Source of the DNA: Thermoplasmata archaeon | GTDB lineage: Archaea > Thermoplasmatota > Thermoplasmata > Lutacidiplasmatales > UBA184 | Direction: 5' to 3' | Length of the DNA: 43,872 nucleotides | NCBI GenBank assembly: GCA_030037815.1 | Contig: JASHPZ010000055.1 | Coordinates: 1-43,872 of the forward strand | Shown: in pieces, positions 23,153-24,880 of the stretch | Layout of the letters: each line of letters opens with the position of its first letter | Numbering within the stretch: the stretch's first letter is position 1 | Notes under the pieces: model-generated | The model's input: only the letters and a program-made list of their open reading frames with translations | What the model was told of the DNA's origin: nothing | Database searches by the model: none | Translations under genes and position numbers: made by a program

Positions 23153-23265
23153 CGCGCGGCCCTCGCCGTCCACGCCCCGGCGCTACATAACCCACGGTCG
23201 CCCCGCTCACCGGCGCGGCCGTCGGCGACGCACGTCTTTTGAGCGGGACCTCACTACCGCCCGGC

Positions 23266-24138
23266 ATGGCACGCCTGCGCCGGGTGACGGTCGCCGGGGG
23301 CCGTTCGTTCGAGTACGTCTCGCAGGGGACCGGCCCCGCGACGCTCCTCGTCCACCCGGGCGGTCCCGGCCTCACGTACCACTACCTGCGCGGCTTTCTG
23401 AAGCTCGCCAACGCGAACCTGCGGGTCGTGCTGTTCAATCCGCGCGGCGTCGGGCACAGCTGGGCGCCGAAGCGGGACGCCGAGTACACGGTCCAGAACA
23501 TGGCGGAGGACGTCGAGGCGATCCGCCGCGCGCTGCGGATCACCGAGCTCCACCTCTTGGGATTCTCGGCGGGCGGGTTCGTCGCGCTCGAGTACGTCCA
23601 TCGGTACGAGAAGCACCTGACCTCCCTCCTCCTGTGCGCCACCGCCGGGAGCGCGGAGGAGATCCGCCAGGCGAGCCGGATGGCGCTCGGGACCGCGTCG
23701 CCCGCGCAGCGGGTCCGCCTCCGCGACCTGACCCGCGCGAAGTCGTTCTCCTCGCGGGAGTACCAAGAGCTCTCCGACAAGATCTTCCGGCCGTTCCAGA
23801 CGCGCTTCCTCCGCGGGACGCACCCGGACTGGAAGGCGACCAAGCTGAACCGGACGGTCTACCGGGCGATGGTGACGCGGTCGGGCGACGAGTTCACCGT
23901 CGACGGCACGCTCGCGAAGTGGGACGGGCGCAAGTACTACTCGAAGATCGAGGTGCCGACGCTGGTCGTCGTCGGGCGGTACGACTTCTTCCTCGAACCG
24001 TCGATGGAGATGAACGACCGGATCGAACCGGCGCACCTCCGGGTGCTCCCGCGCTCGAGCCACATGGCGATCTTGGAGCAGCCCCGCGAGTTCCTCGGGA
24101 CCGTGCGGGAGTTCCTCCTGGACGTCACCGGCGGGTAG
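23266..24138 (+). CDS. Alpha/beta hydrolase (proline iminopeptidase-like)
   Basis: LLVHPGGPGLTYHYLRGF, FNPRGVGHS, ELHLLGFSAGGFVALEYVHRYE (GxSxGG nucleophile elbow), C-term VVGRYDFF and SSHMAILEQP. Confidence 0.88.
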   Translation: MARLRRVTVAGGRSFEYVSQGTGPATLLVHPGGPGLTYHYLRGFLKLANANLRVVLFNPRGVGHSWAPKRDAEYTVQNMAEDVEAIRRALRITELHLLGFSAGGFVALEYVHRYEKHLTSLLLCATAGSAEEIRQASRMALGTASPAQRVRLRDLTRAKSFSSREYQELSDKIFRPFQTRFLRGTHPDWKATKLNRTVYRAMVTRSGDEFTVDGTLAKWDGRKYYSKIEVPTLVVVGRYDFFLEPSMEMNDRIEPAHLRVLPRSSHMAILEQPREFLGTVREFLLDVTGG

Positions 24139-24202: not shown

Positions 24203-24880
24203 ATGCCGAGCGCGAAGCCCCGGCGCGACGAGGCGGGCCCGGCGCCGCCCCGCGTCCGACTGATGCCGGAGGCGCGCGACGCCCTCCGCTCCGCGCTCAC
24301 CGGCCGTCCCGACGGCACCGGGGTCCGCATCTGGGTCGAGCGGGGGCTCCATCCGCACGCGCAGATGATGCTCGACAAGCCGTCCAGCCGAGACGTGCCC
24401 GTGGAGCTCGACGGCGTCCTCCTCCTGCTCGACGAGGCGAGCCGCAGCTTCCTCGAGGACGCCGAGATCCGCTACCGCACCGACCGCGCGCCGGCCGGCT
24501 TCGAGGTCGTCAGCCCGCGCCTCCCCGCCGCCGGGGCACCGCCCGCGCCCAGCGGCCCGCCGGCACCGGGGGTCGCGGCGGACGTCGACGGCCGCGTGCG
24601 CGAGGCGCTGAAATCGATCTTTGACCCGGAGATCCCGATGAACATCATCGACCTCGGGCTGATCTACGCGATCGGGTGGAAGGCCCCGGGCGAGCTCGAG
24701 ATCCGGATGACGATGACGAGCCCCGGCTGCCCCGCGGTGGAGGAGCTGGTCGCCGAGGTCCAACGGGTCGCGGCGCCCGCCGCCGGCGCCGACCGGGCGC
24801 ACGTCGAGGTCGTCTGGGAGCCGCCCTGGGGACCCGAGAAGATGAGCGACTTCGCGAAGCGGCAGTTCGGCTACGCGTAA
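24203..24880 (+). CDS. MIP18/SufT-like (DUF59) protein with an N-terminal cysteine-less A-type (HesB/IscA-like) domain
   Basis: C-term REALKSIFDPEIPMNIIDLGLIYAIGW..ELEIRMTMTSPGCPAVEELV..VEVVWEPPWGPEKMSDFAKRQFGY; N-term GVRIWVERGL..MMLDKPSSRDVPVELDGVLLLLDEASRSFLEDAEIRY..GFEVVSP. Confidence 0.8.
   Translation: MPSAKPRRDEAGPAPPRVRLMPEARDALRSALTGRPDGTGVRIWVERGLHPHAQMMLDKPSSRDVPVELDGVLLLLDEASRSFLEDAEIRYRTDRAPAGFEVVSPRLPAAGAPPAPSGPPAPGVAADVDGRVREALKSIFDPEIPMNIIDLGLIYAIGWKAPGELEIRMTMTSPGCPAVEELVAEVQRVAAPAAGADRAHVEVVWEPPWGPEKMSDFAKRQFGYA

Follow-up and report, generated by a model that had tools for sequence, protein, structure and literature searches.

A ligand-free A-type domain fused to a MIP18/SufT domain in a family of Thermoplasmata archaea

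DUF59/SufT proteins are needed for the maturation of Fe-S proteins, yet no cluster has been found on the SufT of S. aureus or M. tuberculosis. What, then, could be the use of a SufT domain joined to an A-type (HesB/IscA) domain that has itself lost the means of holding a cluster? We have analyzed such a gene in a stretch of 43,872 nucleotides (hereafter the window) from a Thermoplasmata archaeon. The gene (24203..24880, plus strand) is an open reading frame of 225 aa with an ATG start, and homologous full-length fusions support its extent. The initial annotation had placed the start at 24257, which does fall inside this reading frame but cuts off the initial residues of the true gene.

The N-terminal domain (aa ~17–106, 24251..24520, plus strand) would be overlooked by routine annotation because the single sequence falls under the curated cut-off of Pfam for the A-type family (PF01521, E = 0.13, 12.9 bits against a cut-off of 26.3). 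The NCBIfam models for NfuA (TIGR03341, aa 21–99, E = 2.6e-7) and TIGR00049 (E = 6.7e-5) did match it. When 21 homologous fusions were compared by hhalign with canonical A-type carriers and with NfuA N-domains, the HH-probabilities were 99.0% (E = 2.3e-18) and 98.7% (E = 2.1e-16), respectively, with the E. coli IscA, SufA, ErpA and NfuA sequences among the references. The AlphaFold model of the domain alone had a pLDDT of 94.6 and a pTM of 0.83, and a PDB structure search with it gave nine matches at E ≤ 0.001 with IscA and SufA at the top. These comprised E. coli IscA (1r94, 1s98) and SufA (2d2a), cluster-bound IscA (1x0g), DsrR (2k4z, E = 1.3e-4), HI1723 and 9a4q, a crosslinking-MS integrative model listed as ODPA-YNER. 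The hhalign comparison, the model and the PDB matches rule out an unrelated domain. The HesB/IscA likeness proposed in the initial annotation thus came through the profile and structure check, and the domain is a genuine A-type (IscA/SufA/ErpA) fold.

The cluster ligands are another matter. The segment ERGLHPHA (aa 46–53, 24338..24361, plus strand), with G48 and P51 invariant and no cysteine in any homologue, occupies the site of the first ligand loop (GGCSG) of the carriers; in the profile alignment GLHP faces their GCSG. Where the carriers run on as NPNA..CxCG, the window protein has SPRLP (aa 104–108, 24512..24526, plus strand) followed by the linker, again free of cysteine. C176, in TSPGCP, is the only cysteine of the protein, and all three A-type ligands (C35, C99 and C101 in IscA numbering) are absent, which excludes a carrier role via that site in spite of the common fold. 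The absence of cysteine at the GGCxG and CxCG positions had been claimed before from this one sequence; the check was now run over 39 distinct homologous fusions, and none of them retains a cysteine at any A-type ligand position. The protein is therefore A-type-derived and not an A-type carrier. The SufT cysteine, on the other hand, is kept in 38/38 fusions that are not interrupted by a contig end before the site. A few fusion clades have cysteines elsewhere in the N-domain, but usually there is one per protein, too few for holding a cluster unaided. Histidines as substitute ligands were rejected, since relatives have R, Y, Q, A or T where the window protein has H50 and H52, and so were frameshift, mis-assembly or chance, given 39 distinct fusions with common architecture and without ligand cysteines. 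Over the 21 aligned fusions (42–72% identity), A24, R42, G48, P51, D77, L84, F100 and P105 are invariant in the N-domain and M169, T172, G175-C176-P177 and W205-x-P-x-W in the C-domain. Surface residues of the old cluster site are more strongly conserved within clades than across them.

A flexible Ala/Pro-rich linker (aa 107–129, 24521..24589, plus strand; A 26% and P 22% over 39 homologues) leads to the MIP18/DUF59 (SufT-type) domain (aa 130–225, 24590..24877, plus strand). In the full-length AlphaFold model (pTM 0.48) the two domains have no fixed arrangement and the linker drops below a pLDDT of 50 at aa 112–120. The C-terminal domain matches PF01883 over aa 131–203 (E = 3.6e-14, 53.2 bits against a curated cut-off of 23.5), its best NCBIfam model is SUF_assoc (E = 1.3e-28), and its solved relatives are 2cu6, 3lno, 5ird and 1uwd, the same set that the structure search matches. 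The reactive-cysteine signature of DUF59, DPE-X26-31-T-X2/3-C (PMC9045647), is present as DPE (aa 141–143, 24623..24631, plus strand), X28, T172, X3 and C176 (24728..24730, plus strand). Hence the earlier reading of a MIP18-like domain that keeps its cysteine was right: aa ~130–225 are a complete MIP18/SufT domain with reactive Cys176. Its score with TIGR02945, the equivalog of stand-alone SufT, stays below the cut-off (99.3 vs 143.4 bits), and the same is true of the PaaD models NF041868 (74.1 vs 180) and TIGR02159 (39.5 vs 108). No paa genes were seen adjoining the fusion gene.

The build of this protein resembles that of NfuA from E. coli and Azotobacter, in which an N-terminal A-type domain without ligand cysteines, similar in sequence and profile to ours, precedes a C-terminal Fe-S assembly domain. 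The "degenerated" A-type domain of NfuA, which does not itself hold a cluster, is required in vivo and directs NfuA to apo-proteins (PMC8593673). The differences are that the C-domain of the fusion is MIP18/SufT (PF01883) and not Nfu (PF01106), so that, lacking the CxxC, it is not expected to carry a cluster; that the N-domain cysteines proper to NfuA (AECGVSYC) are missing; and that the fusion is archaeal and found in one family only in the data examined. With the SufT of S. aureus and M. tuberculosis (Rv1466; TIGR02945) it shares a complete DUF59, DPE-X28-T-X3-C and WEPPW, but it adds an A-type domain, lies below the TIGR02945 cut-off and coexists with a separate stand-alone SufT in the genome. 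M. tuberculosis SufT binds no Fe or Fe-S and interacts through its cysteine with SufS, SufU and aconitase (PMC9045647), while in S. aureus the functions of SufT and Nfu overlap (PMC4982691; PMC8593673). SufT is known to be modular: a survey of 761 homologues described modules added at the N-terminus (U-type scaffold, Rieske, CysE) and four others at the C-terminus (PMC4982691). The fusion is similar to these architectures (S2–S9, for example the U-type scaffold of S5 or the P-loop NTPase of S4) in having DUF59 with a terminal module, but the catalogue contains no A-type module (PMC4982691). No report of an A-type/DUF59 fusion was found in open-licence papers, and we rate the pairing of A-type domain and SufT as new, the folds and the logic of NfuA being already known. 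An A-type fold is also found in DsrR of Allochromatium vinosum, which has been described as IscA-like without Fe-S binding; it is, however, a stand-alone protein of sulfur oxidation.

On these comparisons, the protein is rather probably a two-domain Fe-S maturation adaptor of NfuA-like build with SufT in the place of Nfu. Because the carrier fold is kept but a cluster cannot be held, the A-type domain would most likely be a docking surface for true A-type carriers and/or apo-target proteins. The flexible linker would tether it to the SufT domain, whose single reactive cysteine would contact the SUF machinery or clients. In this way the fusion could direct SufT activity to selected targets beside the housekeeping stand-alone SufT, probably under oxidative or nitrosative damage. 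We infer this docking role, the partners and the role in stress. The initial annotation had suggested a non-cluster-binding scaffold or adaptor; the sole cysteine, the precedent of NfuA (PMC8593673) and M. tuberculosis SufT (PMC9045647) argue by analogy for the adaptor, and a scaffold is unlikely since the ligands are missing.

The Fe-S machinery that such an adaptor would serve occurs in the same genomes. SufB/SufD were detected in most genomes of the genus, including that of the window, and an ApbC/Nbp35-type ParA in all 25 genus genomes tested. Canonical A-type carriers (PF01521) were found in 34/37, one to four in each. The window's own genome, 89% complete, gave no PF01521 match, and the missing carrier probably lies in the absent 11%. 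Stand-alone SufT is present in most family genomes, again including that of the window. Nfu (PF01106) was found in 0/37 genus genomes, one of them 100% complete, which is weak evidence of replacement because genomes of the class that lack the fusion often lack Nfu too.

The gene neighbors differ between the fusion clades and gene orientations vary. In the window an alpha/beta hydrolase (proline-iminopeptidase-like, 23239..24138, plus strand) ends 64 bp upstream of the fusion gene, and it lies directly before it on the same strand, at 33–78 bp, in 12/12 closest orthologues. This constant neighbor has no Fe-S link, and we count it against the adaptor together with the clade differences in neighbors and in the surface residues of the old cluster site. 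A second clade (L001, L004–L007) has the fusion near genes for Ni-SOD, its maturation protease and thioredoxin. In a third (L002, L008, L009, L099, L135, L137–L139, L141) it adjoins a conserved pair coding for a DUF2249 protein and a protein of ~390 aa (for example L138:4512-6221, L137:295-1788 and L099:3206-4912). The latter has no Pfam or NCBIfam match and is a probable membrane protein, presumably like NnrS judging by eye. Hemerythrin-type proteins are often nearby, one of them weakly similar to the Fe-S repair protein RIC. The Ni-SOD/thioredoxin and DUF2249/hemerythrin settings suggest oxidative or nitrosative damage or stress.

Neighbors conserved within clades could also mean that the fusion matures a single enzyme or pathway, much as PaaD is devoted to phenylacetyl-CoA epoxidase; the A-type domain would then be an enzyme-specific hook and the clients would differ by clade. 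The hydrolase present in 12/12 within the genus, the Ni-SOD/thioredoxin or DUF2249/hemerythrin genes of the other clades and the matches of PaaD models to the C-domain (1e-20 and 6.1e-10) would fit this reading. We consider it improbable nonetheless: no Fe-S enzyme was recognized adjoining the window gene, both PaaD models stay under their cut-offs and SUF_assoc scores best. A real carrier, in which a cluster would be held between two or more copies by Cys176 together with thiols from a partner or a non-protein source while the A-type domain only dimerizes, is likewise unlikely. Cys176 is strictly kept and some DUF59 proteins such as HCF101 do bind clusters (PMC9045647), but there is one cysteine per chain, M. 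tuberculosis SufT carries no Fe or Fe-S (PMC9045647) and SufT homologues have no recognized cluster motif (PMC4982691).

We regard as very unlikely a passive, relic A-type domain that does no more than stabilize or oligomerize SufT. It has lost its ligands, and it is separable, as the bare domain without SufT at one locus (L176, see below) indicates. Against this, the fold core together with G48, P51, R42, D77 and F100 is invariant among 21 fusions of 42–72% identity, and the equivalent domain of NfuA is needed in vivo (PMC8593673). The adaptor remains our preferred reading. A SufT domain tethered in nature to a ligand-free A-type domain argues that both can act by protein contact, and the fusion offers a single-cysteine construct for testing such action.

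As to its distribution, the full-length fusion was found in 38 of 400 genomes of the class, plus three interrupted by contig ends, all of them in six genera of the window's Thermoplasmata family, which contributes at least 95 of the 400. Other families of the class yielded no full-length fusion, the matches listed there being to the SufT domain alone; a phylum-wide search with the N-domain outside the family gave weak matches only, to separate short frames. A scan of 84,980 species, sensitive to close relatives alone, found the fusion in Thermoplasmata MAGs only, and a like fusion could thus exist in distant phyla. One bin labelled "bacterium" (L005, JAKBKR010000062.1) has a fusion locus near-identical to that of a Thermoplasmata contig (L006) and is for this reason probably contaminated. 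Two apparent N-domain-only cases (G173 and G370) were rejected, both being interrupted by contig ends.

The N-domains of the fusions form one clade (support 99/88, and 97/76 in a second tree with one bare domain inside). This bare domain is the stand-alone cysteine-less A-type protein without SufT at L176 (G202:C36:102800-103900, minus-strand ORF 325-735); it sits beside L002 and, from that position inside the fusion clade, may have split off again from a fusion. Among family members, the best profile scores go to Cys-rich A-type paralogues from tandem pairs (E of about 1e-24 to 1e-29), with canonical carriers at 1e-14 to 1e-18 by the same profile. The trees did not discriminate between the NfuA N-domain and the Cys-rich paralogue as sister of the fusion N-domain (AU test, p = 0.47, with long-branch warnings). 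The simplest story is a single fusion event within the family followed by cysteine loss, but an NfuA-like domain may instead have been imported. We advance tentatively, as a possibility below even chances, that the NfuA plan was re-invented independently in this archaeal lineage, from a lineage-specific A-type carrier paralogue and SufT, with loss of all ligands to give a dedicated targeting module that different clades use beside oxidative or nitrosative damage genes. If true, the conversion of a carrier domain into a docking module would have been reached with another partner, possibly independently.

The tandem A-type pairs of the family (L101:2141-2470 and 2548-2991; also L171, L173 and L178) consist of a canonical GGCSG...CSCG protein followed by the paralogue. 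The latter has a Gly/Cys-rich stretch (for example GGGGCGCGSGGGGCGCGGGG) at the first cysteine site, and its Cys-rich tail ends in GGCGCG; such sulfur-rich loops look unusual for an A-type carrier. A third A-type protein (L105:2659-3075), with a GGGGCGGGS loop and a CGSCGS...GGGCGCG tail, adjoins genes that read like heme biosynthesis (hemA/hemC-like) and an ABC transporter.
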